Source: Clostridia bacterium (GTDB lineage Bacteria; Bacillota; Clostridia; Oscillospirales; CAG-272). From it: DNA of 45,006 bases. Below, in pieces: positions 5,669 to 25,019 of this stretch (the stretch's first letter is position 1; every line of letters begins with the position of its first letter). The stretch lies in the NCBI GenBank assembly GCA_028720145.1, contig JAQYLJ010000027.1:1-45006 (forward strand). The letters are read 5' to 3'. A program made the translations under genes and the position numbers. Under the pieces are notes generated by a model, which had not been told where the DNA came from, searched no databases, and was given only the letters and a program-made list of their open reading frames with translations.

Positions 5669-6577
5669 GTGAAACTGACGTTTGACGGAGGCCGTTCGCA
5701 GGGTGACCCGTACGTCATCCGGCACGGCGATACGTATTATATGTACGCGACGGGCGCAAAAGGGGTGCAACTCTATACCGCCCGGGACAAATACCATTGG
5801 CACTACGCCGGTATCTGCTACTCGCTCGAGGGCGAGAAAGAATACTGGGCGCCCGCGGTGCTTTTCCATGAGGGTCGCTTCTGGCTCTATTATTCGTCCA
5901 TGGGCGAGTGGGAGACGGACACGCACCGCCAGCGTATGTGCGTCGCGGTCAGCGACCGTCCGGACGGAAGGTTCGCTTTCGTTGGGGAACTGATCGCGCC
6001 GTTTTCCATCGACGCGCATGTGGTCGAGTCGGGGGGAGACCTCTATATGTACTACTCCACGAACGATTACGAAGCGGAGCGGGCAGGGACGCTGATCGTC
6101 GTCGACAAAATGCTCTCGCCAACCAAAATGTGCGGACATCCGCAGGTGGTGGTGCGCGCGACGCTGGACGAAGAGATCTTCATGCGCGACCGTTTCAGGA
6201 AAGGGCAGCATTGGCACACCCTCGAGGGCGCGTTCTACTTCCGTGTCGGTGACGATCATTTCCTCACCTATTCCGGGAACTGCTATCAGAACGAAACCTA
6301 TTATATCGGGTACGCGGTGGCACACGGGCACACCGACGACCTGACGGAACTGCACTTCCATAAGTACCCGGACGACAACACCTATTGCCCGCTCGTCGCG
6401 AAGAACGACGTCGAAGAGGGGACGGGGCACAACAGCGTGCTTGCCGAGGGTGGGTACCTCTACCTCTTCTACCACGGCAGAGATTACGGCACCCGCGGCA
6501 CCGCCGCGGACGTGCGGACGGCGCGCATCTGCGAGATTGCGGAGCGCGACGGGAAACTCGAAGTCGTCAGTCGCTGA
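5669..6577 (+). CDS. Glycoside hydrolase family 43 protein, cytosolic
   Basis: A 302-residue five-bladed beta-propeller glycosidase with no signal peptide, so it should act on imported oligosaccharides. GH43 enzymes are inverting beta-xylosidases, alpha-L-arabinofuranosidases and arabinanases. The expected triad is visible: general base Asp13 in QGDPYV near the N-terminus, the pKa-modulating Asp115 in SIDAHVV, and the general acid Glu187 in HTLEGAFY. WAPAV near residue 60 and GTGHNS near 250 are typical family blocks. The start is a GTG at 5669 with a GGAGGA site. Operator A and its promoter lie directly upstream. A GC-rich hairpin separates the gene from the next lipoprotein gene. Which sugar it releases cannot be told from the motifs. 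Confidence 0.88.
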   Translation: MKLTFDGGRSQGDPYVIRHGDTYYMYATGAKGVQLYTARDKYHWHYAGICYSLEGEKEYWAPAVLFHEGRFWLYYSSMGEWETDTHRQRMCVAVSDRPDGRFAFVGELIAPFSIDAHVVESGGDLYMYYSTNDYEAERAGTLIVVDKMLSPTKMCGHPQVVVRATLDEEIFMRDRFRKGQHWHTLEGAFYFRVGDDHFLTYSGNCYQNETYYIGYAVAHGHTDDLTELHFHKYPDDNTYCPLVAKNDVEEGTGHNSVLAEGGYLYLFYHGRDYGTRGTAADVRTARICEIAERDGKLEVVSR

Positions 6578-6592
6578 AAAATAAAAAAATCG

Positions 6593-6636
6593 GAGGGGGA
6601 TCCCCCTCCCGCCGGGCAGGTTCCCTGCCCGGCGGG
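6593..6636. repeat. Back-to-back GC-rich palindromes between GH43 and the esterase gene
   Basis: A 16-base perfect palindrome (GAGGGGGATCCCCCTC) abuts a 13-bp stem CCCGCCGGGCAGG/CCTGCCCGGCGGG with a three-base loop. No T-run follows, so it is more likely an mRNA processing or stabilising element, or partial attenuator, than a simple terminator. Confidence 0.6.
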
Positions 6637-6710
6637 AACAAGAAGACAACAAAAGGAACTGTTAACCGAGGCGGGTCGCCCCCGCAATAACCGAAAAAGG
6701 AGATCAGCCT

Positions 6711-8945: not shown

Positions 8946-8976
8946 GAACGGTGGATTATTGGGAAAGGAGAGAATC

Positions 8977-9129
8977 ATGAACGATCGGAAACCTATCTGG
9001 ACACCGCCGGTGACGGAGATTATTTACCTCGGCGCGGACGATGTGATCCGCACCTCCGACACCCACCGCCAAGAAGAAGGTGTCGGCGACAAAACGACCT
9101 GGAATGACCTGTTCGGCGACGGTCAATGA
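8977..9129 (+). CDS. Microprotein of 50 residues with a DVIRTS motif
   Basis: This ORF is absent from the track because of length. It has a textbook GGAAAGGAG site seven bases before the ATG, 31 bases after the esterase stop, and ends 40 bases before the next secreted-protein start, so it is within the operon. The peptide begins with a charged and Pro-rich segment, continues TEIIYLGADDVIRTS, and ends acidic. From memory, short Clostridia ORFs with a P-x-x-E-I/V-I-x-x-x-x-x-D-V-I-x-T-S core recur in gut genomes without assigned function. It has no transmembrane segment, signal peptide or Cys. Position between two GLUG proteins suggests a link to surface-protein production, which is inference. 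Confidence 0.7.
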   Translation: MNDRKPIWTPPVTEIIYLGADDVIRTSDTHRQEEGVGDKTTWNDLFGDGQ

Positions 9130-9169
9130 TCGCCGGGAACTATCAGAACGAAACGAAAGGGTTACTAAC

Positions 9170-11137
9170 ATGAAAAAGATTACTTCGCTTATCCTCTGTA
9201 TCGTTTTGACCGTGGTGGCACTGACCGCGCTCTCGGTGGCTGTGTTCGCCGATGAGGGGGAAACGCCTGCGGTCAGCGATATCACGCTCGCCGGGTATCA
9301 GAACAAGAACGGCGGCTTCGATATCCGTATCGTCGGTAAGATCGCGAATGAGACGAACTACCGCGAGGTCGGTTTCGTCTTCTCGAACGGCACGACCTCA
9401 AAGGAGTGCGCCGCGAAATACATGTTCAAGACGTTGCTCGCGTCCGATGGGGAAAACACCTACGAGGCGCTGACAGCCGGTGAGGGCGAATACCTCTATG
9501 CCTATATCATTGAGGGCATTGAAGAAACCGCCGCTCTGACGCTCAGCGTCAAGCCATATGCCGTGAATAACGACAACGAGAAGATTTACGGCGAGGAAAA
9601 AACGCTCGTCAAGGAAGCGGGCGGACAGTTTGCGCAGGAGACGGTACATACCCACGCGCCGATTCACCACGAGGCGACCGTCGCCACCGCGGCAAGCTAC
9701 GCAACGGCATGGAACACGGAATACTGGTCCTGTGAAGGCTGCTCCAAGCTGTTTAGTGACGCCGCTTGCACGACCGTGGTCGAGGCAGATGCGGTCATGG
9801 CACCGGCGCAGAAAGACAATGCGGACTTTGTCAACAGCGAAACGAATCCTTATCTGCTCGCGAACGTAGCAGACTGGCAAGCCTATGCGGAAGCCGTCAA
9901 CGGCGGTGACAACATGAGCAGCAAATATGTGAAACTGACTGCCGACATCGGCACCGAAGAAGCACCTGTGACGACGGCAATCGGTACATCCTCTAATAAC
10001 CCGTATTGCGGCAATTTTGACGGCAACGGCAAGGAGGTATATGTGAACTTAAGCAGCACTTCTGCCATTGGTGTGTTTGCTTATTATAGGGGCGGTAGCA
10101 TCAGCAATCTGACCGTTCGCGGAACTGTCGCGTATACAAATACAACAACAACTGATCATTCCACGGTTGGTGGTGTGGTAGGCATGATTCTGCAGAATGC
10201 TACGGCAACCATCACAAACTGCAAAAACTATGCGAACATTCAGGCACCCGATAACTGCAGTGCGGGGGGAATCGTCGGGAAGAACAACGGCGGCGTTACC
10301 ATTTCCGGGTGCACGAATTACGGGAATGTCAATGGCGGAAAACTTGGCAAAAACCGCAGTATTGGTGGTATTATCGGGTGGATCAATCAGGTTGATACCA
10401 GAATTGAGAATTGCATAAACAACGGTGCGGTCAGCAGTACAGGCGATACGGCTACGACTGCCGGTACGGGCGGTATTGTTGGTATATCGGGAATGAGTCG
10501 TTCCGTGATTGATGGCTGTATCAATAACGGCACGGTCAGCGGTTATCGCTTTATCGGCGGTATCATCGGGTATGTCGTCCAGAATGCTACCATAACGAAT
10601 GTCAGCAATACTGCTGCCATTAGCGGTACGCGTGATATCGGCGGTATCATCGGCGGCACAGACAATACAAAAACGTCATCCACTTTTAACGAACTGTATG
10701 TGACAGGCGCGACAAACAGCGGCGCCGTCACCGGTACCGGTGACTTCATCGGCGGTATTGTCGGATATATCAACAGTACGGGCAACGTGCTGACCGATTG
10801 CACCAACACCGGCAACATCACCGGTGCAAAGAGCGTCGGCGGTATCATCGGACTGGTGAACGTGAGCAAGACCGCGACGGTGGACAACGCGACCGTGCGT
10901 GACTGCACCATTTCCGGCTCGCAGTCCGTCGGCGGCTGGATCGGCAGAATCGTTTCCAAGGCGACCGCGACCTACAAGAATTATACGGCACCGACCGGTG
11001 TTGCCTATGTGCTGGGCGGCACGGAGACGGAAGCCGTCGCAGGATTTGACACTGCGGGGCGTACGGACGGCGCAACTGCCGCACCCGGTGAGGCGTTCGG
11101 TACCTGCCCCGGCACGGCGACCAACGTCACCGAATAA
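9170..11137 (+). CDS. Secreted GLUG-repeat protein
   Basis: 655 residues from the ATG at 9170. The track start at 9080 adds 30 residues that overlap the microprotein gene and precede the signal peptide. A Sec signal peptide (hydrophobic run, cleavage near VFADE at about residue 28) has no lipobox Cys. Residues 35-150 form an unassigned beta-rich domain. Next is a Cys-pair motif of the type WSCEGCSKLFSD that recurs in clostridial surface proteins. From about residue 225 onward it is GLUG repeats (GGIIG, GGIVGYI and similar, about ten units). No LPxTG or transmembrane anchor is seen, so it is either released or held non-covalently. A terminator follows. GLUG repeats are binding or adhesive solenoids in known proteins; the ligand is unknown. 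Confidence 0.8.
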   Translation: MKKITSLILCIVLTVVALTALSVAVFADEGETPAVSDITLAGYQNKNGGFDIRIVGKIANETNYREVGFVFSNGTTSKECAAKYMFKTLLASDGENTYEALTAGEGEYLYAYIIEGIEETAALTLSVKPYAVNNDNEKIYGEEKTLVKEAGGQFAQETVHTHAPIHHEATVATAASYATAWNTEYWSCEGCSKLFSDAACTTVVEADAVMAPAQKDNADFVNSETNPYLLANVADWQAYAEAVNGGDNMSSKYVKLTADIGTEEAPVTTAIGTSSNNPYCGNFDGNGKEVYVNLSSTSAIGVFAYYRGGSISNLTVRGTVAYTNTTTTDHSTVGGVVGMILQNATATITNCKNYANIQAPDNCSAGGIVGKNNGGVTISGCTNYGNVNGGKLGKNRSIGGIIGWINQVDTRIENCINNGAVSSTGDTATTAGTGGIVGISGMSRSVIDGCINNGTVSGYRFIGGIIGYVVQNATITNVSNTAAISGTRDIGGIIGGTDNTKTSSTFNELYVTGATNSGAVTGTGDFIGGIVGYINSTGNVLTDCTNTGNITGAKSVGGIIGLVNVSKTATVDNATVRDCTISGSQSVGGWIGRIVSKATATYKNYTAPTGVAYVLGGTETEAVAGFDTAGRTDGATAAPGEAFGTCPGTATNVTE

Positions 11138-11156
11138 AAACAAAAAATCAACAACG

Positions 11157-11193
11157 CCCCCACACGGATTTGATCCGCGTGGGGGAATTTTTC
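11157..11193 (+). terminator. Terminator after the GLUG protein
   Basis: CCCCCACACGGA pairs with TCCGCGTGGGGG (one mismatch) around a five-base loop, followed by AATTTTT. Confidence 0.85.
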
Positions 11194-11204
11194 CGGGGCA
11201 TGAC

Positions 11205-11237
11205 AAAGAGAGCCACCGCGCCGCGGTGGCTCTCTTT
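11205..11237. terminator. Long perfect palindrome, probable bidirectional terminator
   Basis: AAAGAGAGCCACCGCG and CGCGGTGGCTCTCTTT are perfect 16-base inverse complements with one base between. It lies in the convergent gap between the GLUG gene and araC, about 95 bases after the araC stop. Confidence 0.7.
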
Positions 11238-11332
11238 GATTGGTTTTTGGGGGGTCGCTGTTTGGCGGCGCTGTCGTACTGCCTCGTCGGGTCGGGGGCG
11301 TGCGGTGCTGTGACCGGGCGCGCCCCGGCGCG

Positions 11333-12136
11333 TCAGCGGTGGTTGCTGAAATATTCTTTCGCGTACTCGGTCGGGGAGACGCCCGTTTCGAGCTTAAACA
11401 TCTTGGAGAACGTGTAGACCGAGGAGTATCCCGTCATCTCGGCAATTCTCCCAATCGAGGCATCGTCGCCGATGAGCAGTTCCTTCGCTTTTTTAATACG
11501 GACGGTACGCAGGTACTTGATAGGTGACTCCCCGTAGACACGGGTGAACACCTTGCGGAAATATACCGTCGAGATACCCGCCATGGCGGCGAGGCTCTCG
11601 TTCGTGATATGTTTATCGAAATAGCGTGTGCGGATGTAGTCAATTACGGGTTCGAGCATATGCCGGTAGGAGCTCGGCAGATAAGTTTCTTTATGCTCCG
11701 TCACCGTGGCTTTATCGAGGATCTTATAGAACATGGACTTGCATTTGAGCAAATAATTGTCCTTTTTGAGATCCCACAGGTTCGCTACGTTCAGGAGCAT
11801 CGTGGCAATCTCCCGGCTGACTGCGTCGGAGAGCGCAAACTCATAAAAGTCGAACGGCTCGCCTTCCAGCTCCCCCTCGAACTCGATCGTGATGCACTTC
11901 CCCTGCTGCCCGAGCTGCCACTGATAGCGAGCATCCTTTGAGATGAGGAGCAGATGGTGCGGGTCGGTGACATAGGTCTTGCCGCCCGCGTAATAGTAGG
12001 TAAGTCCCTCGACCTTCAGCGTCAGGGCATAAGTCGAGCGGTCGTTGCGCGTGATGCGCTTCGTCTCATATCGGTAGATGGTGTTGACGGCAAGGATCCG
12101 GTGGAGGATCAGCTTTGAAATCGTTTTAGCATCCAT
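11333..12136 (-). CDS. AraC family transcriptional regulator
   Basis: 267 residues from the ATG at 12136; the track GTG start at 12208 would add 24 residues overlapping the promoter. The N-terminal half (about residues 25-110) is a cupin-like sensor domain. The C-terminal 100 residues carry the two helix-turn-helix motifs of the family: SLAAMAGISTVYFRKVF, and IAEMTGYSSVYTFSKMF followed by GVSPTEY. Such proteins usually activate sugar-catabolic operons on binding a monosaccharide. The gene is divergent from the Gfo/Idh operon and shares its intergenic region with operator B. No Shine-Dalgarno site is seen before the chosen ATG, and a TATAAT -10 box lies only nine bases upstream, so the mRNA may be leaderless. 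It is the best candidate to bind the four TATCA-N13-TATCA sites. Confidence 0.85.
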   Translation of the reverse strand: MDAKTISKLILHRILAVNTIYRYETKRITRNDRSTYALTLKVEGLTYYYAGGKTYVTDPHHLLLISKDARYQWQLGQQGKCITIEFEGELEGEPFDFYEFALSDAVSREIATMLLNVANLWDLKKDNYLLKCKSMFYKILDKATVTEHKETYLPSSYRHMLEPVIDYIRTRYFDKHITNESLAAMAGISTVYFRKVFTRVYGESPIKYLRTVRIKKAKELLIGDDASIGRIAEMTGYSSVYTFSKMFKLETGVSPTEYAKEYFSNHR

Positions 12137-12145
12137 AGTAAGGCT

Positions 12146-12174
12146 ATTATAAAGCATATTGTACAAAAAAACAA
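12146..12174 (-). promoter_or_regulatory. araC promoter, placed for leaderless transcription
   Basis: TTGTTT and a perfect TATAAT are 17 bases apart. The -10 box ends nine bases before the preferred ATG at 12136, so the transcript would begin within a few bases of it. Confidence 0.5.
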
Positions 12175-12214
12175 CCGCGTTTTTGATTTTTGCTAAATAT
12201 TTTAGCACGGGTTC

Positions 12215-12254
12215 AGTATCAAAACGGACAAAAATATCACAATGGGCATTTACA
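12215..12254 (+). promoter_or_regulatory. AraC-type operator, copy B, between araC and the Gfo/Idh operon
   Basis: A TATCA-N13-TATCA direct repeat is followed by CATTTACA, with its TTTACA forming the -35 of the downstream promoter. It lies about 40 bases upstream of the araC -35 region as well, so it could also serve autoregulation. Confidence 0.7.
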
Positions 12255-12278
12255 CCTTTTCGGGCATCCTCCTATAAT
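12249..12278 (+). promoter_or_regulatory. Promoter of the Gfo/Idh to ABC-permease operon
   Basis: TTTACA and a perfect TATAAT are 18 bases apart, 55 bases before the ATG at 12334. The weak -35 embedded in operator B fits activator dependence. Confidence 0.65.
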
Positions 12279-12333
12279 AAAAATGTAGAACGGGCGCGCC
12301 CGCGCGCCTGCACCATTTCGAGAGGACAGAATC

Positions 12334-13383
12334 ATGGCGGAAAACGGAAAACTTCGCATCGGCATCTTCGGTATCGGGCACAATCATGCGGCGGCTGCCA
12401 TCGCCGCACTGAAAGCGCGTGAGGACGTGGAGATCGTCGGACTATGTGAGCCGGACGACGCGATGCGGGAAAAACGACTGAAGGAGAACCCCGCCGTCTA
12501 TGGTGACATTCCCGTGATGAGCGAGGAGCGCCTCCTCGCCTCGGGTATCCGCGCCGCAATGGTCGAAGCCTCTGTCCCCGACCTTGTACCGACTGCGCTC
12601 CGCTGTGCGGAAGCCGGACTTCATATCCACATGGATAAACCCGCCGGTACCGACCTTTCGCTCTATCGCACGTTCCTGGATGTCGCTCGGGAGAAGCATC
12701 TTGTCTTTCAGACCGGGTACATGTACCGCTACAACGCCGGTGTGCGCTACGTACTGGAGCGCGTCCGCAACGGGGCGCTCGGGCGTATCTACAATATCAC
12801 GGCGGAGATGTGTACCAAGCATCCGGGCTGGTTCGAGCGGCAACTCATCGGTTACGGCGTCAAGGCGCCGGTCATGTACATCTTCGGCGGGCATCTCATC
12901 GACCTCTGTATGCAGGTCAAAGGAGTCCCCGCGGATCTGACCGCTTTCCACACCGAGTCGGGCGACGGAGACATCCACTTTGAAGATACCTCTCTCGCGG
13001 TTCTGACTTATCCCGACGGGATCGCGACGGTGCGGGTCTCCTCCTGCGAGGTCAACGGTTGGGGTCTGCGCGAGTTTACGGTCTTTGGAGAGCAGGGCAC
13101 GATCACGGTGAGCCCGCTGGAAGCCCCAATGCGCGTCCGCGAGACGACGCTCGCAGAGCAGGAGCCGTGGAAAGACCGCTACCACACGGTAGACGTCCCC
13201 GAAGTCGGGCGGTACGACGTCATGATGCACGATTTCGTGTACATGGTGGAGGGGAAGATCCCCTACGACGTCGATTTCACCCATGAATACCTGCTACAGA
13301 AACTGACCCTCGAGGCATGCGGTTACACGGCGGAGGAAATGAATGCCAACGCTTCCATCACTGCCCGTGCGTCAGATGATTGA
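12334..13383 (+). CDS. Gfo/Idh/MocA family oxidoreductase
   Basis: 349 residues. The N-terminal Rossmann domain starts GIFGIGHNHAAAA (about residues 10-22). The family signature is MDKPAGTD, near residue 105, whose Lys is the usual catalytic base of the EKP motif. A C-terminal alpha/beta domain begins near YMYRYN. The His in FGGHLIDL near 190 matches the conserved catalytic region. Members oxidise or reduce sugars and inositols with NAD(P). The start has a GAGAGGAC site. It is the first gene after operator B and its promoter, so it heads the long operon that continues through the transporter genes. The likely role is processing of an unusual sugar released by the locus; the substrate is unknown. 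Confidence 0.88.
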   Translation: MAENGKLRIGIFGIGHNHAAAAIAALKAREDVEIVGLCEPDDAMREKRLKENPAVYGDIPVMSEERLLASGIRAAMVEASVPDLVPTALRCAEAGLHIHMDKPAGTDLSLYRTFLDVAREKHLVFQTGYMYRYNAGVRYVLERVRNGALGRIYNITAEMCTKHPGWFERQLIGYGVKAPVMYIFGGHLIDLCMQVKGVPADLTAFHTESGDGDIHFEDTSLAVLTYPDGIATVRVSSCEVNGWGLREFTVFGEQGTITVSPLEAPMRVRETTLAEQEPWKDRYHTVDVPEVGRYDVMMHDFVYMVEGKIPYDVDFTHEYLLQKLTLEACGYTAEEMNANASITARASDD

Positions 13384-13423
13384 CAAACGAAACGCGAAAA
13401 GAGGATAATTGAATTGAAAATAA

Positions 13424-14575
13424 TTGACGGAAAAGTCGTCATTGAAACCGGTGCCGGCGGCAGACACCCTGCCACGCGCGGTGACGGGCCGAGGGACTGA
13501 CACGGTGACGCATTCCATCCAAACGACACAAGCGGTCACACCGCAGGCAGGTCAGCCGGACAGCACCGCCGGCACCACCCAAACGGGGGCAGAATCCGCC
13601 GGGGGCGGGAATCCTAAAGCCACGCTGACGGCAGTCGGGCTCGGTCTCATCGTCATGCTCCTCTGGGGGTCGCTGTTCCCGTTCGTCAAATACGGGTACA
13701 AGGTGTTCGAGATCGACACGTCGTTCTACCCGAACCTGATCCTCTTCGCCGGGGTGCGGTTCCTTGTGAGCGGCGCGCTCCTCTCGGCGTTCTGCCTCGC
13801 GACGCGGCGGACGTACCTCCTCCGACAACCGAAGAAGTGGCTCCCGACCGCCCTCGTCGCCCTGTTTGCCGTGGTACTTCATTATGCCTGCACCTATATC
13901 AGCCTCGGGCAGATCGACAGCTCCAAGACGGCGCTCCTCAAGCAGTCGGGCGTGCTCGTGTTCGTGTGCTTCTCGTTCCTGTTCTTCCGTGACGACCGAT
14001 TGACACCGGGGAAGATCATCGGCGCCGTGTGCGGGGTTGCCTCGGTGCTGGTCATCAATCTGGATTCCTTTAAGATCACGTTCGGTCTCGGGACGGCGCT
14101 CGTCATCGGCGCGAGCTTCTGCACTGTGATCTCCAACATCATCTTTAAGAAGAGTTTTCACGATGTCCCCGCCGTGACCGTCACGGGGTACTCGCAGCTC
14201 ATGGGCGGTCTGTTCCTGACCGTACTCGGGCTTGCCCTCGGCGGGCGAATCCCCTCCTTCGGTTGGCGCGCTGCGCTCGTCATGCTGTACATCATCGTCG
14301 CGACGGTGGTCAGCTACGGGCTGTGGTACTACGTCGTACAGAAATACGCGCTCTCAAAGCTCTTTATCATCAAGATGGCGGAGCCGCTGTTCGCGGCGCT
14401 CGTCAGCGTGCTGTTGCCGCTGGGGACGCATCTGACATGGCAGCACGCCGCCGCCTTTGCCCTCGTTGCCGTCGCCGTGTGCGTGAGCAACATACAATTC
14501 CCGAAACGAAGCAAAATCAAGAAAACCGTGTCCGCGGCAAGTAACGCCACGGAAGAAGAAGGAGAAACGAAATGA
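13424..14575 (+). CDS. EamA/DMT superfamily transporter with an odd N-terminus
   Basis: 383 residues with ten hydrophobic segments and the typical first helix MLLWGSLFPFVKYG near residue 75, plus the internal duplication of EamA domains. It is a drug/metabolite-type exporter or permease; the substrate is not readable. The N-terminal 65 residues before helix 1 are Thr/Gly/Ala-rich and not family-like. The track start is TTG at 13424 without a good ribosome site. The best site (AAAAGAGGA) instead serves a TTG at 13414 in another frame, which reads a 28-residue peptide and stops at 13500. A GTG at 13505 is a further candidate start. This suggests a deletion or fusion at the 5' end. The stop overlaps the next ATG (ATGA). 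Confidence 0.75.
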   Translation: MTEKSSLKPVPAADTLPRAVTGRGTDTVTHSIQTTQAVTPQAGQPDSTAGTTQTGAESAGGGNPKATLTAVGLGLIVMLLWGSLFPFVKYGYKVFEIDTSFYPNLILFAGVRFLVSGALLSAFCLATRRTYLLRQPKKWLPTALVALFAVVLHYACTYISLGQIDSSKTALLKQSGVLVFVCFSFLFFRDDRLTPGKIIGAVCGVASVLVINLDSFKITFGLGTALVIGASFCTVISNIIFKKSFHDVPAVTVTGYSQLMGGLFLTVLGLALGGRIPSFGWRAALVMLYIIVATVVSYGLWYYVVQKYALSKLFIIKMAEPLFAALVSVLLPLGTHLTWQHAAAFALVAVAVCVSNIQFPKRSKIKKTVSAASNATEEEGETK

Positions 14576-15561: not shown

Positions 15562-15571
15562 GGGAGGCGCT

Positions 15572-17014
15572 ATGAAAAAACACCTGTTATGGACAATGCT
15601 CCTGCTATGTCTCGTCCTGCTCCTCGCGGGGTGCGGTGCGAAATACAGCTGGGACGATGAACGCCTGAACTACAATATCACCGGGGAGACGGTGGAAAAC
15701 GGGACGCTCTATGTGACGCGCAAAGGCGAAAAGGTCAAGCGCGCCGCCGAGGGCGATATCCTCTACGTCAATCTTGTCCCCGCTACGGGCTATGGGCGCG
15801 CGAGCATCACGGTCAACGGTGAGGCGATCGAGGGGTCGCAATTCACGATGCCTGCAGGCGACGTGAAAGTGGCGGCGACCGTCCGCCCCATCGTCAGTCA
15901 GATCACCGTGGACACCGCGCTCGTCGGCGGTACCGTCACGGCGGATAAGACAGAAGCCATGTACGGCGAAACCGTTACATTGACCGTCACGCCCGAGGCC
16001 GATTACACGCTCATCGAGCGCAGTCTGACCGTGAACGGGGCGGAGATCTATCGAGGACAGGCGGCGGAGGCGACGCAGGTCACGTTCCGTATGCCGCCGC
16101 ATGACGTCCGCATCACCGCCCGCTTCCGGGATACGACCCTGCGGATCACCACGATGGATGAATATCGCGCGTTTGCCGCCCTCGTCAACGGCGGGACGGA
16201 TTTTCGCGGTCGCCGCGTCATCATCGACGCGGATATCGGCTCCCCCGAGGCGCCGGTCGACGTCATGATCGGGAATGCATCGGATAAGGCGTTTGCCGGT
16301 ACCATCGAAGGTAACGGTCATACCGTGTATCTCAATCTGACCGGCACAAAGGGCATCGGTCTCATCGGTTATTCAAACGGCGCTACGGTGAGAGACCTCA
16401 CGGTCGCAGGGCAGGTCAAGTTGACCGCAGGCAATATGTATGCGGGCGGCTTTGTCGGTCTTGTCCAATGGGCGAGCGGCAGGGTCACGACGCTCGAGAG
16501 ATGCGTCAACGAAGCGACGGTCAATGTGACGGATTCGTCCAATGCCGGTGGCTTTGTCGGGCGGACGCTCGGTAATCTCACGGTCACGGGATCGGAAAAC
16601 AAAGGCAATGTGACGACCGCCGGCAATTATGCCGCAGGCATTGTCGGTTACATCAACAATTCCGATGCCTTGGGGGCGGGCGCTCCCGCCATCACCATCA
16701 CGGATACGGTGAATACAGGCAACATCACCGCCGTGAAGGGTGTCGGAGGCATCGTCGGGCTGTTCCATAAAGGGGCGGCAGGTGCCGTGCACGTCCTCAC
16801 GAACGTCTCGAACACCGGCACCCTCACGGGGGATGAACAGGTCGGTGGCATCGTCGCCGTCATCACGAGCCAGGCGACAGGCGGCTTTGACATTACGATC
16901 ACCTACCGCGAGGCGGGACTGAAAGACGAAAACGGGGAAGACCTCGTCGTGGGCGCTGACAATAACCGGAAAACAACGGTCATCACACACATCACCGATG
17001 ACGGAAATGTATGA
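15572..17014 (+). CDS. GLUG-repeat surface lipoprotein
   Basis: 480 residues. A lipoprotein signal ends LLLAGC (Cys21). Residues about 40-190 hold two divergent InlB-B-like repeats, each ending in an F-x-MP-x-x-DV motif (FTMPAGDV, FRMPPHDV). Residues about 200-480 are GLUG repeats. From the GFVGRTLGNL segment to the end it parallels the C-terminus of the esterase lipoprotein at 6711 nearly position by position, including SENKGNVTTAGNYAAGIVGY and the closing AGLKD segment. It looks like the esterase gene with the catalytic domain replaced by binding repeats. An AGGGAGGC site precedes the start, ten bases after the previous stop. It probably displays a binding surface for glycan or partner proteins. 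Confidence 0.8.
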   Translation: MKKHLLWTMLLLCLVLLLAGCGAKYSWDDERLNYNITGETVENGTLYVTRKGEKVKRAAEGDILYVNLVPATGYGRASITVNGEAIEGSQFTMPAGDVKVAATVRPIVSQITVDTALVGGTVTADKTEAMYGETVTLTVTPEADYTLIERSLTVNGAEIYRGQAAEATQVTFRMPPHDVRITARFRDTTLRITTMDEYRAFAALVNGGTDFRGRRVIIDADIGSPEAPVDVMIGNASDKAFAGTIEGNGHTVYLNLTGTKGIGLIGYSNGATVRDLTVAGQVKLTAGNMYAGGFVGLVQWASGRVTTLERCVNEATVNVTDSSNAGGFVGRTLGNLTVTGSENKGNVTTAGNYAAGIVGYINNSDALGAGAPAITITDTVNTGNITAVKGVGGIVGLFHKGAAGAVHVLTNVSNTGTLTGDEQVGGIVAVITSQATGGFDITITYREAGLKDENGEDLVVGADNNRKTTVITHITDDGNV

Positions 17015-17025
17015 GGAGGGGAAAG

Positions 17026-18729
17026 ATGAAACAGAAACTGCTGGCACTGACTGTCCTCCTCTGTATGCTCCTGCCGCTCGCCCTCACCGGGTGCTCCGGC
17101 GGCGATAAACTCGAGTACGTCTCTTACGGTGAGGACATCAAGGAATTTGATACCTCTCTTTTCTACGGGAACGTAGAAACCATGCAGGGCGCCGACCCAT
17201 CGCTCATCTGGGTGCCGGAAGCGCTCGATGAGAACGGGCAGGTGAAGGAGGACACCGGGTACTATTACGCGTATATCACGGCGACCTCCATCATTAACGC
17301 ATGGCGCACGCGGGATATGACCAACTGGCAGTATCTCGGCGCCGTGTTCCGCCCCGACCTCGACACGTTCTGGGCGTACATGAACTTCTGGGCGCCCGCC
17401 GTTCACTATGATGCCGAGGACGGCGTGTACTATATGTATTACAGCGCGACGTCGAAGAGCGTCTCGGAATACAAGACGCATTACATCTCACTCGCCACCT
17501 CAACTTCTCCGATGGGGCCCTTCACCGAATGGGGCAGCATTTCGGAGCCGCTCATCGACTTTTCGAAGATGCCGAAAGATCATCCGCTCTATGAAGCGCA
17601 CGGGGAAGGCACCACCTGGGCGGACGGCTATTTTGCCGCCATCGATGCCGAGCCTTTCGTGGACGTGAACGGGGATATTTACCTGCTCTTCACGCACGAT
17701 AAGGGCGCGGGGTACTCCTCCAGCTCCACCTATATCATGAAGATGAAAGAATGGTGGGAGCCGGACTACGAGAGCATTACCTGCATCTCCCTCACAGGCT
17801 CCTGTGAGGTCGGCGGGAGCGAGAAGATGGATGAGGGCACCGTCAACGAGGGGCCGTTCATGCTCTATCACGAAGGGCTTTACTACCTAACGTTCTCCGT
17901 CCACACCTACGATGAATCGTCTTATCAGGTGCGGCAGGCGGTCAGCACCTCGCCGATGGGTCCCTTCCACAAAATTGCGACCGAGAAGGGCGGTACGGTC
18001 ATCACGACCGACGGGCTGAACGCCTACACCAACTCCGCCGGTCACCATTCGTTCATCACCGTGGGGGATGAGATCTACATCAGCTACCACACCTTCAAGA
18101 ACGACAAATCCATTTCACAGGCGCGGAAGATCCGCTTCGACAAGGTGTCCTTCGTCACCAATGACGACGGGATTCCCGTCATCTACGCGAACGGTCCCAC
18201 CGTGACGCTCCAGCCGCTCCCCACCGCCATCAGCGGGTACGAGAACAAGGCGACCTCGGCGCAGGTTACGGCGACAGGGCTCCGCGAGGGCAGCAGCCCT
18301 TACTGGCTGAACGACGGTACGCTCAAGATCCACGAGACGCCGAACATCGTCGACGAGACCTACTTTAACGTAGGGAAGAAAGCAAGTACCGTGACGCTGT
18401 CATGGGAGGACTACATTTCGGCAAAAGCCATCATGGTGTACAACAGCAATCTGTATGACACCTCTTTCACCAAAATTGACAATATCCGCATCTGGTACCG
18501 CGTCGGTGACACCGAGGGCGTGTGCGAGACGGGCGAGATCGCTTTCAGCTACGACCAGTATTCGCTGGTGCCGAAACATTATAACTGCATCTTCGCCGGC
18601 GCGTCCTGTACAATCCAGTTCGCGGACATGGATATCAGACAAATCGAAATTACCGTATCGGAATCCCGCGGCGGCGAGGTCTTCGCCATCTCGGAGATCG
18701 CGGTACTCGGTAAAAAGGAGGGAAGATGA
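17026..18729 (+). CDS. Surface lipoprotein GH43 glycosidase with a C-terminal discoidin-like domain
   Basis: 567 residues from the ATG at 17026, chosen over 17011 because AGGAGGGG precedes it and the signal peptide starts there. Lipobox LTGC (Cys23). The GH43 propeller spans about 50-390, with catalytic Asp57 (GADPSL), Asp207 (AIDAEPF) and the acid Glu275 (VNEGPFM), plus FWAPAV at about 121-126 and GHHSF near 345. Residues about 400-565 form a beta-sandwich of the F5/8 (discoidin) type, likely carbohydrate-binding. It is displayed outside the cell, in contrast to the cytosolic GH43 at 5669. Its stop overlaps the next gene by four bases. Expected to release arabinose or xylose side chains or cleave arabinan. 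Confidence 0.87.
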   Translation: MKQKLLALTVLLCMLLPLALTGCSGGDKLEYVSYGEDIKEFDTSLFYGNVETMQGADPSLIWVPEALDENGQVKEDTGYYYAYITATSIINAWRTRDMTNWQYLGAVFRPDLDTFWAYMNFWAPAVHYDAEDGVYYMYYSATSKSVSEYKTHYISLATSTSPMGPFTEWGSISEPLIDFSKMPKDHPLYEAHGEGTTWADGYFAAIDAEPFVDVNGDIYLLFTHDKGAGYSSSSTYIMKMKEWWEPDYESITCISLTGSCEVGGSEKMDEGTVNEGPFMLYHEGLYYLTFSVHTYDESSYQVRQAVSTSPMGPFHKIATEKGGTVITTDGLNAYTNSAGHHSFITVGDEIYISYHTFKNDKSISQARKIRFDKVSFVTNDDGIPVIYANGPTVTLQPLPTAISGYENKATSAQVTATGLREGSSPYWLNDGTLKIHETPNIVDETYFNVGKKASTVTLSWEDYISAKAIMVYNSNLYDTSFTKIDNIRIWYRVGDTEGVCETGEIAFSYDQYSLVPKHYNCIFAGASCTIQFADMDIRQIEITVSESRGGEVFAISEIAVLGKKEGR

Positions 18730-20282
18730 TGAAGAAAAGGCTTATGCTCCCTCTCATCGCCTGCCTTCTGCTCCTGGCGGCGAGCCTCACCGCCTGCGGC
18801 GGCGGTTATACGTTCGCGCCGTACTCCTACACAAATAAGGCGCCGATCCCCGCCGATATTCATGATTTTACGTCGGTGGACGGCATGACGGTAGACGGCG
18901 TGCGCGATGCGCAGTACGGCGACGCTGCACAGCACCGGCTTTATTACAAGAACAACGTCAACAGCGATATTTACGTCGACGCGTATCTGTACTTCGGTGA
19001 TGAGGGGATTCACTGCTTCGTGTCCGTCAAGGATAATATCCTCTCTTTCAATGCCAACCGCTCGGTCTATCTCAATTCCTCGGTGGAACTCTTCTTCAAC
19101 GCGACGCAAACCAAGAGCGGCAGGCAGAAGACCTCGATCGATAATGCCACCTGTCAGTGGCGCATCGACTGCGGCGGGAAGTCTGCGAAGCTCTGCGGCA
19201 TCGGTGGCAGAAACGCCTACACCGGCTCCTACTTTGACGGTCAGTTCGCCGTCAATCTGAACGGTGAACTCAATTCGCAGGACGCGACGGGCTTCGACGT
19301 CGAGACGTTCATTCCGTGGTACGAACTCGGCTTCACCCCGGACGAAAACGGGGACTACGGGGTCACGGAACTCATGTTCAACGTGGCGTACAACCACAAG
19401 GACGACCCGTACGGGGCAGAGGACAATACCTCCCGCGCCCGTTCCATGAAGACCTTCAGTTATCAGGCGACCCCCTATACATGGGTGCCTCTCGCGAAGA
19501 ATGCGGACGGCACGGCGCGGAACCTGACCTCGCCGGACGGCAACTTCTTCGGCACGCTCATCGTCGAGGGCGGTCTGCTCGCCGGGGTGTACGAGCCAAC
19601 GTACCTTGTTGATCTCTCGCAGGATAACGACGAGGGCGGGAACAAGATGTTCATTCGCTCGGATTCTCCCACCGCTTACGCGGTCGTGAAGAACAGCACC
19701 TCCTCGCACTTCTACTATGAAGCGTATCTCAGCGGCATCTCGGGTGAGCAGAGCAACACGCCGAAAATCGGTATTACGGTGCTGTTCCCCGCCAACCGGA
19801 TTACGCTCTACATCAAAATGTACGACGGCGCTAATATCGCCGACGGGATATGCGGTGTGGTACAGCGGACGATCACCAACGGCGGCTACAACTGGTCGGA
19901 GGCGGCAGACCCCAACGACGACACAATGAACTGGGGCTACTATACCAACAGTAAGTTCCCTGATCCGGACAATCACTTCATCACCGAAGGTGTCAAACTC
20001 GCCATCTACCGCGAGGACGACATTCTGTGCTTCTTCGTCAACGACGAGTTGTATTTCGCGAACCGGGCGGCGATTGACGCCGGCTTCACCCCGCTCTGCG
20101 AACAGCCCCTGAACCTCCACGACACCGCGAGCCGTGAGATCTTCGGCACGAAAATCGTGGACGACAGCATCGTGGGCGTGTTCTCGTTCGGCGCGAACGC
20201 CACCGTTTCGGACTACACGTTCGTGAAAGGCGACGATGCCTCCGCGCGTGTGGCGTCCTACCGCACCTCACAAGGCGATTGA
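18726..20282 (+). CDS. Surface lipoprotein with a CBM9/DOMON-like sugar-binding domain
   Basis: 518 residues. Lipobox SLTAC (Cys24). Residues about 45-230 resemble the CBM9/DOMON-like fold found at the start of clostridial xylan-utilisation proteins: a VDG start, YFGDEGIHCFVSVKD, SSVELFF and FDVETFIPW segments. The remaining 280 residues form a beta-rich, Trp/Tyr-rich region that I cannot assign; a concanavalin-like lectin sandwich is possible. No catalytic motif was recognised. It starts inside the GH43 stop (ATGATGA), with AAAAGGAGGG upstream. It lies directly before the ABC binding protein, so it may capture glycan at the surface for import. Confidence 0.7.
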   Translation: MMKKRLMLPLIACLLLLAASLTACGGGYTFAPYSYTNKAPIPADIHDFTSVDGMTVDGVRDAQYGDAAQHRLYYKNNVNSDIYVDAYLYFGDEGIHCFVSVKDNILSFNANRSVYLNSSVELFFNATQTKSGRQKTSIDNATCQWRIDCGGKSAKLCGIGGRNAYTGSYFDGQFAVNLNGELNSQDATGFDVETFIPWYELGFTPDENGDYGVTELMFNVAYNHKDDPYGAEDNTSRARSMKTFSYQATPYTWVPLAKNADGTARNLTSPDGNFFGTLIVEGGLLAGVYEPTYLVDLSQDNDEGGNKMFIRSDSPTAYAVVKNSTSSHFYYEAYLSGISGEQSNTPKIGITVLFPANRITLYIKMYDGANIADGICGVVQRTITNGGYNWSEAADPNDDTMNWGYYTNSKFPDPDNHFITEGVKLAIYREDDILCFFVNDELYFANRAAIDAGFTPLCEQPLNLHDTASREIFGTKIVDDSIVGVFSFGANATVSDYTFVKGDDASARVASYRTSQGD

Positions 20283-20309
20283 TTGAATGTAAATAAAGGA
20301 GACAAACAC

Positions 20310-22256
20310 ATGAAAAGATTTGTTGCCATCGCTCTCATGCTCGTGATGATGACGGCGCTCCTCGTGCCCCTGCTCAGCGGGTGTAAAAAGCGCGGGAGCG
20401 GCGTGGATATCTCGTTCGATGAGAACGGTAATCTGCTGCCGTCCTCCGGCACCACGATCCATGTCACCTCGTACTCCGAGGGGGACGAAGAAAAGCGTTT
20501 CTACCAGTTGTGCGACGCCTTCAATGAAAAGTATAAGGAATACAACATTCAGGCGATCTACGAGCCGAGCGACTCCGCCGGGTACGAGCAGACGATGAAG
20601 ACCTCGCTCTCCTCCTCCACCTGCCAGGACGTCCTGCTCGTCTCCGACAGCTACTACAAGCAGTGGGCGACGCTCGGCTACCTCGAACCGCTGGATAATT
20701 ATATCAAGAGCGAATATGCCGCACTCAACTTTGAAAAGGAAATCGCGGAAATGTACGAGGGCGGTGTCGGACGATACCTCTATGACGTCGTGACGACCAC
20801 CTCGGACGGTCCGAACGCGCATTACTACGGGCTCCCGAAGGGCACCGGCGCGACCGCCATTTACTACAACAAGACCTATATGAAGAATGCCGGCATCACG
20901 GAGATCTCCGTGTATGAGGAGGACATCGACGCCTACAATAACGGCGCGACGGATGCCTACGGAAATGTCAAGCCCTTCTCCGGCAACGCCCCCAAAAAGG
21001 CATTCTTCACCGTGGACGGCAGACGCTACTTCAACAACAAGATTCCGATGAGCTGGCAGGAGTGTTCGGAACTCGCCGCCATTCTTCAGGCGGTCAATGC
21101 GGCGGCAGGCTGTAAGTACGGCTTCATCACCAGCTGGTGGTTCAATTACGGCTTCTCGGTGGGCGGCAGCTGCATGCAGTATCTGACGTCCGACGATGCG
21201 GGGCTGACCGGCGGTTACTACACCTTCACCCTCGCGGACTCGACGGTCAACTACAAAGCCAAAGAAGATATTGCCGTCAACGGTCATACCTACAAGGCGG
21301 GCGAGATCGTCTCCTACGAGGATAAGTTCTACATGAGCGACACCCTTGCCGAGAAGTGCGAGGTGCTCCCCTCCCAGCGCGAGGCGTTCGCGGAATACAT
21401 GAGCCTCGCCGGCAAGGTGGGCAACAGCCACTACCATGCCGACGTCACCTACGGCGGTAAAACCTACACCGGCGTGACGGACGCTTTCTGGTCGGTAATC
21501 CCGTATCAACTCGGTGCGACGCCCAAAGAGGCGATCGCCAAGAACGAAGAGCTGCTCCGCAGCCCGAACAACCTCGGAGATCCCGGCAGTGCCGGCGCAC
21601 TTGCTGCGGCTTCGCACGAATATGTGATCGTGCAGAACAAGGGCATCTCGGTCAACCCGGCGACACTGAACACGGACGGCCGTTTCACCCAGTTCACGCA
21701 GGGTTATACCGCCATGGTCGTTGACGTCCGCGTCAGCGTGGCGCAGGCGCGCCTGATCCGTGACTTCGAGTGGGATGTCGCCCCCATGCTCGTGTGGAAG
21801 GATTTTGACGACGAGGGCAACACGATCGCCTCCGGCGTCGAGGGCGCACACTCCGGCTCGAACGCGTGGGCGGTGTGGAGCAAATCCACGATCAAAAATG
21901 CGGCTTATCTGTTCCTCAAGTTCGCGGCAGGTGAGGAGGGGCAGAAGATCCTCGCCGAGGCGGGCACCATCATCCCGAACCAGAAGAGCATCGCGAAAGA
22001 GATGATTCAGGAAGATCTTGCGAAGGGGCTTTCTCCCCGTAACATCGAGGTGTTCGAGCGCGGGGCAGAGTACCAGACCCCTGGTGACTGGTGGTTCCTC
22101 AAGGACGGCGACTGGATCGACGGCGACGGCTGCTGGGCAAACTACCTCAACCAGACCGTGCGTAACTTCAAAGCGACCATGACGACCTTCTATACCGTGA
22201 ACGACTATCTCAAGACCTTTGATACGCTGAAAAAATACACGGCAAAAGAGGACTGA
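20310..22256 (+). CDS. ABC sugar transporter substrate-binding lipoprotein
   Basis: 648 residues from the ATG at 20310 (AAAGGAGA site); the track start adds nine residues before the signal peptide. Lipobox LLSGC (Cys25). The mature part has the family 1 solute-binding pattern: ITVTSY-like first strand (IHVTSYSEG), a DVLLVSDSY segment, a GLPKGTGATAIYYNKTY segment and a NAWAVWSKS segment near residue 520. At about 650 residues it is longer than the common 420-550, with extra loops around residues 300-400, suggesting a large oligosaccharide ligand. It is followed after four bases by the permeases and is one operon with them. It delivers sugar to the membrane complex. Confidence 0.9.
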   Translation: MKRFVAIALMLVMMTALLVPLLSGCKKRGSGVDISFDENGNLLPSSGTTIHVTSYSEGDEEKRFYQLCDAFNEKYKEYNIQAIYEPSDSAGYEQTMKTSLSSSTCQDVLLVSDSYYKQWATLGYLEPLDNYIKSEYAALNFEKEIAEMYEGGVGRYLYDVVTTTSDGPNAHYYGLPKGTGATAIYYNKTYMKNAGITEISVYEEDIDAYNNGATDAYGNVKPFSGNAPKKAFFTVDGRRYFNNKIPMSWQECSELAAILQAVNAAAGCKYGFITSWWFNYGFSVGGSCMQYLTSDDAGLTGGYYTFTLADSTVNYKAKEDIAVNGHTYKAGEIVSYEDKFYMSDTLAEKCEVLPSQREAFAEYMSLAGKVGNSHYHADVTYGGKTYTGVTDAFWSVIPYQLGATPKEAIAKNEELLRSPNNLGDPGSAGALAAASHEYVIVQNKGISVNPATLNTDGRFTQFTQGYTAMVVDVRVSVAQARLIRDFEWDVAPMLVWKDFDDEGNTIASGVEGAHSGSNAWAVWSKSTIKNAAYLFLKFAAGEEGQKILAEAGTIIPNQKSIAKEMIQEDLAKGLSPRNIEVFERGAEYQTPGDWWFLKDGDWIDGDGCWANYLNQTVRNFKATMTTFYTVNDYLKTFDTLKKYTAKED

Positions 22257-22260
22257 GTCC

Positions 22261-23154
22261 ATGACGATCACAAAGAGTAAAAAAGCGAGATCAGACGAAC
22301 TCTGGGGTACGCTCTTCGCGGGGATCCCAGTGCTGGGGCTCATCATCTTTACCTATATACCGCTCCTCATGGCGGTCATCATGTCTTTCATGGAGGTGCC
22401 GGGGCTCACGCTGCGGGGGGCGAAGTTCTTCCCGCTGAAGCAGATCTTCACAAACTACGTCACGGTTATCAAGGATCAGTATTTCTGGAAGTCGATCCTC
22501 AATAACATCATCCTGATGATCGGTCTGCCGATCTCGATCGTTCTGTCCATCGCGATCGCGGAGCTGCTGACCAAGGGTCTCCGCGGCACCCGCTTCTTCA
22601 AGGTGCTGCTGTTTGTCCCGTATGTCTGCTCCGTGACGGCGACGACCTTCATGTGGAACTGGTTGCTCAACTACGACCACGGCGTTGTCAACAGCATCCT
22701 CGGCAAGAATATCAACTGGTTTGGTCCCGACCTGTTCATCTGGTCGGTCATGATCATGACCGTCTGGGCGACCTGTGGCTACCGCATCCTGCTCTTTACG
22801 GCGGCGATGACGAACGTCAACAGCTCGCTCAAGGAGGCGGCGGCGGTGGACGGCGCGAACAAATTGCAGATCTTCGGTCATGTCACACTTCCGTCCATCA
22901 CGCCGACCATCTTCTACATCCTCGTGATGGGCACCATCGGCGTTCTGCAGGAATTTACCCGTATCCAGGTGCTGGATCCCACGGGCGCCAAGTGCTCGAC
23001 CGTCGTGTTCTATGTCTATAAGAAGATGCTGGTCGGAACGCCGGAGGCAGGGGTCGGCTGTGCCGCGAGTATCATCCTCGCGCTCCTGGTCGCGCTCCTG
23101 ACCAAACTGCATTTCACGATTTCAAAGAAGTGGGTGAGCTACGATGCAAGCTAA
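22261..23154 (+). CDS. ABC sugar transporter permease (MalF/LplB type)
   Basis: 297 residues with six transmembrane helices. The cytoplasmic EAA loop that docks the ATPase reads EAAAVDGANKLQIFGHVTLP at about residues 196-215. It starts four bases after the binding-protein stop and overlaps the second permease by 11 bases. Confidence 0.92.
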   Translation: MTITKSKKARSDELWGTLFAGIPVLGLIIFTYIPLLMAVIMSFMEVPGLTLRGAKFFPLKQIFTNYVTVIKDQYFWKSILNNIILMIGLPISIVLSIAIAELLTKGLRGTRFFKVLLFVPYVCSVTATTFMWNWLLNYDHGVVNSILGKNINWFGPDLFIWSVMIMTVWATCGYRILLFTAAMTNVNSSLKEAAAVDGANKLQIFGHVTLPSITPTIFYILVMGTIGVLQEFTRIQVLDPTGAKCSTVVFYVYKKMLVGTPEAGVGCAASIILALLVALLTKLHFTISKKWVSYDAS

Positions 23155-24028
23155 TGAAATGACGAAAAAACCGAAAAAGAATCATAAGCATCTCGACAAC
23201 GCCCTCGTCTATACGGGTCTGATCGTCGCATCCCTCCTCGTCGTCCTGCCTTTTGCCATCGTGTTCATGACCTCGTTTATGACGGCGGAGGACGCGACGA
23301 CCGGCGGCTTCTCGCTCATCGGTCAGAGCGGCATGACGTTCCAGGGGTATAAGGAGTTCTTCAATTATAAGGACTACTATACCGGCGTGCCGCGTTTCCT
23401 CACAGGTCTCGGCAGTACCATGATCACGTCGCTCGTCCCGACCCTTGCATCCCTGTTTTTTGCGGCACTCGCTGCATTTGCTTTTGCGAAGATCCGCTTC
23501 CGCATGAGCAAGGTGTTCTTCAACATCATTCTGTTCACGATGATGATCCCCGGCACGATCCTAATGGTACCGCACTACCTGATGTATGAGTCCTTCGGGT
23601 GGATCGACACCTATCTGCCGCTTATCATCCCCGGGCTGTTCGGCGGTGCGAGCATGATCTTCTTCCTGCGTCAGTTCATGTTCGGTATCCCCGATTCCCT
23701 GATCGAGGCAGGGAAGGTGGACGGGCTCACATGGTTCGGCATCTTTATCCGCGTGGTATTGCCTCTGACGGTGCCGGCACTCCTCGCACAGGGGCTGCTC
23801 AGCTTCATCACGCATTACAACGCCTATCTCGGTCCGCGCCTCTATCTCAAGAGCCGCGATCTCGCCACCCTGCAGCTGGTGGTCGCGAACTTCAAGGACG
23901 CCGCGAAGTTCAATCAGCCTGCCATTATGGCGTGCTGTATCGTCACCATTCTGCCCATCCTCATTCTCTACACGATCTTCCAGAAGTATTTTGTGGAGGG
24001 CATCGCCACCACGGGCATGAAGCTGTAA
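23144..24028 (+). CDS. ABC sugar transporter permease (MalG/LplC type)
   Basis: 294 residues with six transmembrane helices. The EAA loop is LIEAGKVDGLTWFGIFIRVV at about residues 186-205. The C-terminus VEGIATTGMKL is the usual ending of this permease class. It overlaps the first permease gene by 11 bases. No ATPase gene follows; the nearest is 19 kb upstream at 3917, or a shared ATPase elsewhere is used, as with MsmX in Bacillus. Confidence 0.92.
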   Translation: MQANEMTKKPKKNHKHLDNALVYTGLIVASLLVVLPFAIVFMTSFMTAEDATTGGFSLIGQSGMTFQGYKEFFNYKDYYTGVPRFLTGLGSTMITSLVPTLASLFFAALAAFAFAKIRFRMSKVFFNIILFTMMIPGTILMVPHYLMYESFGWIDTYLPLIIPGLFGGASMIFFLRQFMFGIPDSLIEAGKVDGLTWFGIFIRVVLPLTVPALLAQGLLSFITHYNAYLGPRLYLKSRDLATLQLVVANFKDAAKFNQPAIMACCIVTILPILILYTIFQKYFVEGIATTGMKL

Positions 24029-24092
24029 CGCACAGCGGCAGCGCGAGCGGAACGCCTGTCTCATTTTTGCGGACGAATGTGAGCATATCGCA

Positions 24093-25019
24093 TTGACGGG
24101 TGACGGCACGATCGATTGTAACGGACACAATTTCGTCAAGCGGCGCCCCGCTGACAGAATCGATTGGAAGTATGAGCGGATCGACGCGCCGACACCACCT
24201 CGTGCCGTGTTTTTCACCGGCTGCCGGTATGTGAAAATCGAAGATATCCTGATGAAGAATCAACCCTCGGGGTGGTCATACTGGATTCATGATTGCGACT
24301 ATGTGACGATTGACAAGATCAAAATCCAAGCTTGCGTAGACTATCCGAACAACGACGGCATTCATGTGAATTGCTCTCGGAATGTGACCATTTCGAACTG
24401 CGATATCACCTGCGGTGACGACTGCATCGTCGTGCGTGCGAACAGCGCTTCGCTGAAAGAGAATACCGTATGTGAAAAGATTTGCGTGACGAACTGCAAC
24501 CTGACCAGTTATTCCGCGGGTATCCGCATCGCGTGGATCAACGACGGTACCATCCGAAACTGTGTGTTCTCCAATTTGGTGATGACCGATACGACCGTCG
24601 GGATCAGTCTGTTCATCCCACGAGGGAAACGACCCGAACTCACCGATGTGGGACGGGAGGAAACGGTCGTCGAAGGCCTGCTGTTCGATCACATTGTGAT
24701 GAATGAGGTGTGCTATCAGTCAATTCTTTTGAAACTGGCAGACAATGAACACGCACGGGTAAAACGCATTAAGAATTTGAGTTTTTCCGATATCCACGCC
24801 AAGGGACCGCATTTCTTTACCCTGCAAGGCAGAAAAGAATGCCCGCTTGAAAACATATCCTTTCACGACTGCCGGTTTGAAATCACGGACGGCACGGAAT
24901 TTCCCGATCCGCTTCACCACGGTGCCGCCTCCTATTGGGAGGAAGGCTATCAGCCGTGCACTGTCCATTATGTGAAGGGATGGAAGATGAACAATGTGGA
25001 GATTGATGTAGAGCGATAA
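24093..25019 (+). CDS. GH28 (polygalacturonase-like) protein lacking its 5' end; probable pseudogene
   Basis: 308 residues in the track, from a TTG with no ribosome site. In frame upstream, codons 24054-24092 read LIFADECEHIA, the usual GH28 lead-in to the LTGDGTIDCNG strand. The frame then meets TGA at 24018 inside the permease, with no usable start. About 60-90 N-terminal residues and the gene start are therefore missing. The beta-helix core keeps NNDG and CGDDC, which hold the catalytic Asp residues. The family GHG motif is replaced by SAG and RIK by RIA, so ordinary polygalacturonase activity is doubtful; rhamnogalacturonan-type relatives also differ there. Base composition is a little lower in GC than its neighbours. 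A terminator follows the stop directly. It most likely arose by a deletion that joined the permease to the GH28 interior. Confidence 0.75.
   Translation: MTGDGTIDCNGHNFVKRRPADRIDWKYERIDAPTPPRAVFFTGCRYVKIEDILMKNQPSGWSYWIHDCDYVTIDKIKIQACVDYPNNDGIHVNCSRNVTISNCDITCGDDCIVVRANSASLKENTVCEKICVTNCNLTSYSAGIRIAWINDGTIRNCVFSNLVMTDTTVGISLFIPRGKRPELTDVGREETVVEGLLFDHIVMNEVCYQSILLKLADNEHARVKRIKNLSFSDIHAKGPHFFTLQGRKECPLENISFHDCRFEITDGTEFPDPLHHGAASYWEEGYQPCTVHYVKGWKMNNVEIDVER

Follow-up and report, generated by a model that had tools for sequence, protein, structure and literature searches.

How might a bacterium with a single membrane keep several glycan-active enzymes on its surface and next to an importer? 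This question is raised by positions 5669-25019 of contig JAQYLJ010000027.1 from a Clostridia bacterium (Oscillospirales, CAG-272), where genes for lipoproteins, glycoside hydrolases (GH), GLUG-like proteins and components of an ATP-binding cassette (ABC) importer lie close together. The window, i.e. the whole stretch of DNA analysed, comprises 45,006 nucleotides and corresponds to contig C27 in a draft genome of 1.9 Mb with a completeness of 98%. We consider it probable, on balance, that the locus is a Gram-positive polysaccharide utilization locus (gpPUL) of a monoderm, built on lipid-anchored surface proteins and directed at a decorated, probably arabinose-bearing glycan. It can be recognised as a variant, albeit an elaborate one, of the sugar-utilization loci known from Gram-positives.

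Lipoproteins and importer of the locus

In terms of the published gpPUL definition (PMC5320581), degrading enzymes are represented by two GH43 proteins and a SASA esterase, each recognised by family, transport by a solute-binding lipoprotein (SBP), two permeases and an ATPase, and regulation by an AraC protein (Table 1). The five lipoproteins named in the original prediction, made from the sequence alone, all carry the expected lipobox cysteine: LTAC with C25 in an esterase-GLUG fusion (EstGLUG), LAGC with C21 in a second GLUG-like lipoprotein (GLUGlipo), LTGC with C28 in a GH43 lipoprotein (GH43lipo), LTAC with C24 in a CBM9-like lipoprotein and LSGC with C34 in the SBP. The secreted GLUG protein also listed there (GLUGsec, start ATG 9170) has a signal peptide and no lipobox, and both GH43 proteins and both oxidoreductases were recovered by Pfam. 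Searches of the genome gave no match to Omp85 (controls positive in seven genomes) and, by family search, none to sortase (controls positive); they covered these two routes, and either protein could be missed in a draft of 98% completeness. Because neither was matched, it is plausible that the organism is a monoderm whose surface proteins are lipid-anchored on the outer face.

A further claim, that the locus lacks a dedicated ATPase, did not hold. Just upstream of the region originally delimited, a gene with its own ribosome-binding site (gggagg ahead of ATG 3917) encodes a MalK-type ATPase with intact Walker A, LSGGQ and Walker B motifs, and a membrane protein gene starts 12 nt after it. Homologues of both stand side by side in loci of this kind in four further genomes (G022, G250, G292 and G328). 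Hence, with SBP, two permeases and this ATPase on one contig, the importer is complete by gene content. SBP orthologues likewise occur in the syntenic loci. According to Pfam, the ATPase consists of the nucleotide-binding domain only, without the OB/TOBE region of classical MalK, and MalK-type ATPases carrying OB/TOBE or TOBE are encoded elsewhere in the genome. Its pairing with the permeases is one that we infer from their neighbourhood.

The association of lipoproteins and importer is conserved. In the four genomes mentioned, which belong to two genera, an ordered core comprises SBP, permease, permease, GH43 lipoprotein, cytosolic GH43, two small genes, membrane protein and ATPase. Ahead of this core lies a lipoprotein of some 1730 residues, which in G022 displays an InlB-B-like repeat together with an SGNH domain. 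In the window, the core components are reordered: ATPase and membrane protein precede the cytosolic GH43, and GLUG genes and oxidoreductases are inserted in between. Orthologues of the cytosolic GH43 with 45-50% identity are present in the four syntenic loci, and those of GH43lipo adjoin importers in other genomes. A second locus type, found in G022, G250 and G328, consists of SBP, permease, permease, ATPase, GH43 lipoprotein, SASA lipoprotein and GH3, and adjoins an AraC gene and a DUF4886-GLUG lipoprotein; in G250 and G328, its contig additionally encodes further GLUG and SASA lipoproteins, a GH2-like protein and another GH43 lipoprotein. A partial copy exists in G039. Finally, contig C62 of the organism's own genome (L050) bears a paralogous set of SBP, permeases, GH43 lipoprotein and CBM9 lipoprotein. 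As a refuting outcome, the original prediction had named orthologous loci in which the lipoproteins are never retained as a group. Since the ordered core and the second locus type do keep them together, the idea survived, and the proposed surface lipoprotein array joined to an importer is supported by recurrence: GH43, esterase, GLUG and CBM-like lipoproteins recur beside CUT1-type importers in two genera. This would represent a recurring way to hold several glycan enzymes at the surface beside an importer without a detected outer membrane or sortase.

Several side observations concern these sister loci. The GH3 following the SASA lipoprotein is Pfam-confirmed in L081:659-2935, while its assignment in L107 and L108 follows from position and the start of the sequence. 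The paralogous set on contig C62 adjoins BNR sialidase-like, DHDPS/NanA-family, ROK and GH4 genes. Lipoproteins joining Laminin_G and metallophosphatase domains with GLUG-like regions are encoded on G022:C98 (L082) and G250:C76 (L106), a GDPD domain being fused in L082 and located on a neighbouring lipoprotein in L106.

In case of the CBM9-like lipoprotein, the predicted family relationship stood at the level of the family profile and not for the window protein by itself. The profile of its N-terminal half finds the CBM9 structures 1i82 (E 1e-6) and 7nwn (7e-5), and one family member matches PF06452, while the protein searched singly gave no CBM9 match; the putative homology is thus a profile-level one. 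The profile search replaced structure prediction, which had been suggested as a check and was successful in part, giving a confident beta-helix for GLUGlipo and an unusable model for the CBM9-like protein (predicted local distance difference test score, pLDDT, 42). Searches with the C-terminal half gave nothing below E 0.4 in the PDB and nothing better than 0.08 in Pfam. A domain homologous to this half is, however, present as an extra C-terminal domain of the GH43 lipoprotein in G022, G250, G292 and G328, whereas in the window it resides on a separate lipoprotein, whose gene overlaps that of GH43lipo by 4 nt. The fusion in four genomes provides good evidence, at the sequence level, that GH43lipo and the CBM9-like lipoprotein would act together.

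Gene organization, enzymes and likely substrate

Table 1 Features of the locus and their supporting evidence (positions refer to the window)
Feature	Position	Strand	Evidence
MalK-type ABC ATPase, 238 aa, nucleotide-binding domain; candidate importer ATPase	3917..4633	+	Pfam ABC_tran 2e-31
Membrane protein, weakly MusI/YesL-like, paired with ATPase	4646..5503	+	NCBIfam MusI_fam E 6e-9, below cut-off
Cytosolic GH43	5669..6577	+	Pfam GH43 2e-29
EstGLUG lipoprotein, fusion of SASA/CE6-type SGNH esterase and GLUG beta-helix	6711..8945	+	Pfam SASA 1e-19
GLUGsec, secreted GLUG protein without lipobox	9170..11137	+	Pfam Glug 26.3 bits (cut-off 20.5)
AraC-family regulator, divergent	11333..12208	-	Pfam HTH_18 6e-22
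Promoter-like TTTACA-18-TATAAT upstream of the 12334-25019 unit	12249..12278	+	11/12 match, consensus match only
Gfo/Idh/MocA oxidoreductase	12334..13383	+	Pfam
EamA-family transporter	13424..14575	+	Pfam EamA 2e-28
Zinc/quinone-type oxidoreductase	14572..15561	+	Pfam ADH_zinc_N
GLUGlipo lipoprotein, InlB-B-like repeat and right-handed beta-helix	15572..17014	+	Flg_new_2 6e-10; predicted fold
GH43lipo, GH43 lipoprotein with C-terminal discoidin-like domain	17011..18729	+	Pfam GH43 7e-34
Two-domain CBM9-like lipoprotein	18726..20282	+	N-half profile to CBM9; C half homologous to GH43-lipoprotein tail
Solute-binding lipoprotein (SBP)	20310..22256	+	Pfam SBP_bac_1 1e-17
CUT1-type permease 1	22261..23154	+	Pfam BPD_transp_1
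CUT1-type permease 2	23144..24028	+	Pfam BPD_transp_1
GH28-like protein, N-truncated	24093..25019	+	Pfam GH28 profile 50-278 of 324

Overlapping stops and starts over long stretches, as described originally, are real for positions 14572-24028, where successive gaps amount to -4, 10, -4, -4, 27, 4 and -11 nt. Scans further revealed terminator-like hairpins at 5515-5545 and 11204-11238 and promoter-like sites at 5606 and 12249, all as consensus matches only. Together with the minus-strand AraC gene, they suggest a division into three units besides AraC, namely ATPase with membrane protein, cytosolic GH43 with EstGLUG and GLUGsec, and an operon spanning 12334-25019. A single operon across 5669-25019 was rejected, as the antisense AraC gene and the hairpins interrupt it; of the proposed ordered cluster, the gene list was retained. 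Beyond the locus, a gene for an MFS_2 (GPH-type) sugar symporter adjoins it on the minus strand (26272-27708), and 29312-31342 encodes a secreted protein of large size, in which GGG(V/I)F...MNGG units recur and which also has a List_Bact_rpt domain and, at its C-terminus, a membrane segment.

Judged by family names, an acylated glycan bearing arabinofuranose is the likely substrate. This call is based on the cytosolic GH43, whose nearest solved structure is HoAraf43 (4qqs) at low similarity, and on an esterase family of mixed substrates. The nearest solved GH43s overall are arabinofuranosidase, arabinanase and xylosidase/xylanase entries. In EstGLUG, the catalytic blocks of SASA/CE6-type esterases are present (GQSNM at 145, DPAH at 387), and a sequence search among solved structures gave no relative of this domain. 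Of the GH43-discoidin architecture originally assigned to GH43lipo, the GH43 part was confirmed, while the discoidin part traces back to a single sub-threshold Pfam match (DUF7402). The GH28-like gene, located 64 nt behind the stop of an intact permease gene, is the sole GH28 found by family search of the genome. It had been called truncated, and its profile match indeed begins at position 50, the N-terminus being missing; NND, DD and an RIK string are present, GHG motif and signal peptide are absent, and the protein falls short of a full-length GH28 fold. As the only GH28 of the genome is truncated and devoid of GHG, pectin is disfavoured as main substrate.

On this basis, the following order of events may be envisaged. 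The CBM9-like lipoprotein, possibly aided by the predicted GLUG beta-helices, would retain at the membrane a decorated glycan or long oligosaccharide that bears arabinofuranose and is probably acetylated. EstGLUG would strip acyl groups and GH43lipo would trim side sugars, whereupon the SBP could hand the product to the permeases. Import would be powered by the upstream ATPase with its membrane partner, and inside the cell, the cytosolic GH43 and perhaps the oxidoreductases would carry on breakdown. Expression of the system would be governed by the AraC protein.

GLUG proteins and competing explanations

Three window proteins had been described as containing GLUG modules. Only GLUGsec exceeds the gathering score of Pfam GLUG (PF07581), whereas EstGLUG and GLUGlipo, which do not pass, are GLUG-like by mutual homology (63%), by about 35% identity to GLUGsec and by predicted fold. 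The GLUG block of the two is also shared at DNA level, with 71-77% identity over about 650 bp (8169-8823 versus about 16292-16928). For GLUGlipo, residues 190-460 form a confident beta-helix in the AlphaFold model (block means mostly >80), the right-handedness being taken from structural matches and not from the model itself. The best PDB match by Foldseek, and the sole one below E 0.001, is 3n6z (probability 1.00, E 7.5e-5), followed by M26 IgA1 proteases of Gram-positives with E 0.003-0.16. The repeats of 3n6z have independently been related to GLUG (PMC4021314), and in the pneumococcal IgA1 protease this beta-helix is part of a domain that touches the antibody substrate and whose movement opens the active site (PMC7695701). 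The predicted fold hence suggests a ligand-contacting role, the type of ligand, glycan or otherwise, being left unspecified. The scaffold role that the original prediction assigned to the GLUG modules is hypothetical.

Such a fold would equally suit general surface or adhesion proteins directed at host or microbial proteins or matrix, which happen to lie beside an ordinary gpPUL, with capture achieved by SBP and CBM-like domains only. The protein-contacting M26 beta-helix speaks for this explanation, as do GLUG-like proteins elsewhere in the genome, several of them about 1000-2100 aa, on contigs C25, C29, C45 and C49, so that GLUG is not confined to glycan loci. On the other hand, GLUG is fused to SGNH-type esterase domains here as well as in G022, G250 and G328 (SASA with GLUG; DUF4886 with GLUG), and near GH43 lipoproteins, GLUG loci occur more often than expected. 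Using a custom GLUG profile, since a whole-genome PF07581 search missed window proteins, 5 of 12 GLUG loci in four genomes (collapsed by contig) were located within 20 kb of a GH43 lipoprotein versus 0.44 expected by an approximate base rate with contig ends handled by hand; with one genome per lineage, this became 4 of 11 versus 0.37. The 20-kb limit was picked after the loci had been seen, and the count is inflated because G022 and the g20 genomes were fetched for carrying the system. Overall, the adhesion explanation is a serious contender, though clearly the less probable one. The bolder proposal that GLUG beta-helix lipoproteins constitute a surface glycan-docking class for Sus-like capture complexes in sortase-less monoderms, together with lipid-anchored esterases, GH43s and CBM9-like proteins, is rather improbable. 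Nevertheless, GLUG, a family for which the literature searched yielded very few papers, gains a testable context, with esterase fusions in glycan loci and a predicted fold like the substrate-contacting beta-helix of IgA1 proteases.

Alternatively, the target might be a bacterial or host glycan, e.g. a polymer of wall or capsule that contains phosphodiesters, or else a sialylated glycan, and not a plant hemicellulose. The metallophosphatase domains and GDPD domains or neighbours of GLUG lipoproteins in sister loci hint at phosphodiester-bearing glycans, and the sialidase-like surroundings of the C62 paralogues point in a similar direction. GH43 and CBM9 typically go with plant polysaccharides, however, the nearest solved GH43s fit this pattern, and neither phosphatase nor sialidase was found among the window proteins scanned, which renders a non-plant target unlikely. 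Still much less credit is given to a decaying, chimeric or misassembled cluster without coherent function. While the incomplete GH28, the short ATPase and the rare and patchy distribution among relatives could be read this way, the remaining genes are open and ordered, the esterase retains its catalytic blocks and the ATPase its motifs, and four genomes share the core order.

Several points weigh against the gpPUL interpretation itself. GH43 is polyspecific, which leaves the substrate a guess, and the window proteins scanned included no recognised endo-acting backbone enzyme; a scavenging role of the locus is therefore possible. Full-length SBP orthologues are rare: in a set of 147 relatives, only G022 has one besides the own genome, and in a family sample the count is 4 of 395 genomes including the own one, the other three belonging to genus g20. 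A scan of genome contigs with the SBP returned one match, a spurious one to the signal peptide. The CBM9-like protein is without match in 146 relatives, and GLUG-like proteins occur away from such loci, as described above. Moreover, the window ATPase is 43% identical to the ATPase of another transporter (C40) and 43-45% to the syntenic ones; as both are about equally similar, the permeases might instead draw on a shared MalK encoded elsewhere.

Comparison with known systems

The predicted likeness to the Sus system of Bacteroidetes proved to be a loose one. As in Sus-type polysaccharide utilization loci, several surface lipoproteins combining binding and hydrolysis are encoded beside a transporter. 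Here, in contrast, the transporter is a CUT1-type ABC importer, no Omp85 match or other sign of an outer membrane was obtained, and SusC and SusD were absent from Pfam scans of the window proteins, a genome-wide search not having been made. The comparison is thus an analogy only, and the locus is not a Sus homologue. With the GLUG family (PF07581) and the N-terminal beta-helix of M26 IgA1 proteases (3n6z, 6xjb, 7uvk), the GLUG proteins share a predicted right-handed beta-helix and related repeats, but they lack the M26 protease domain and instead show fusions to an SGNH-type esterase and an InlB-B-like repeat. CUT1 importers with a MusI/YesL-like partner likewise comprise an SBP, two permeases, a MalK-type ATPase and a small membrane protein; the present importer differs in its ATPase without OB/TOBE and in a MusI match below the curated cut-off.

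The closest parallel is offered by the gpPULs of Roseburia and Eubacterium rectale, which also unite degrading enzymes, an ABC importer and an AraC regulator in one locus and share an esterase, GH43s and a GH28 with the locus described here. Ros-2 of Roseburia, for instance, contains two GH43, a CE12, a GH28, an AraC protein and an ABC transporter (PMC5320581). What sets the present locus apart from these gpPULs are its outer enzymes in lipoprotein form, the fusion of an esterase to a GLUG-like beta-helix and the additional CBM9-like lipoprotein.

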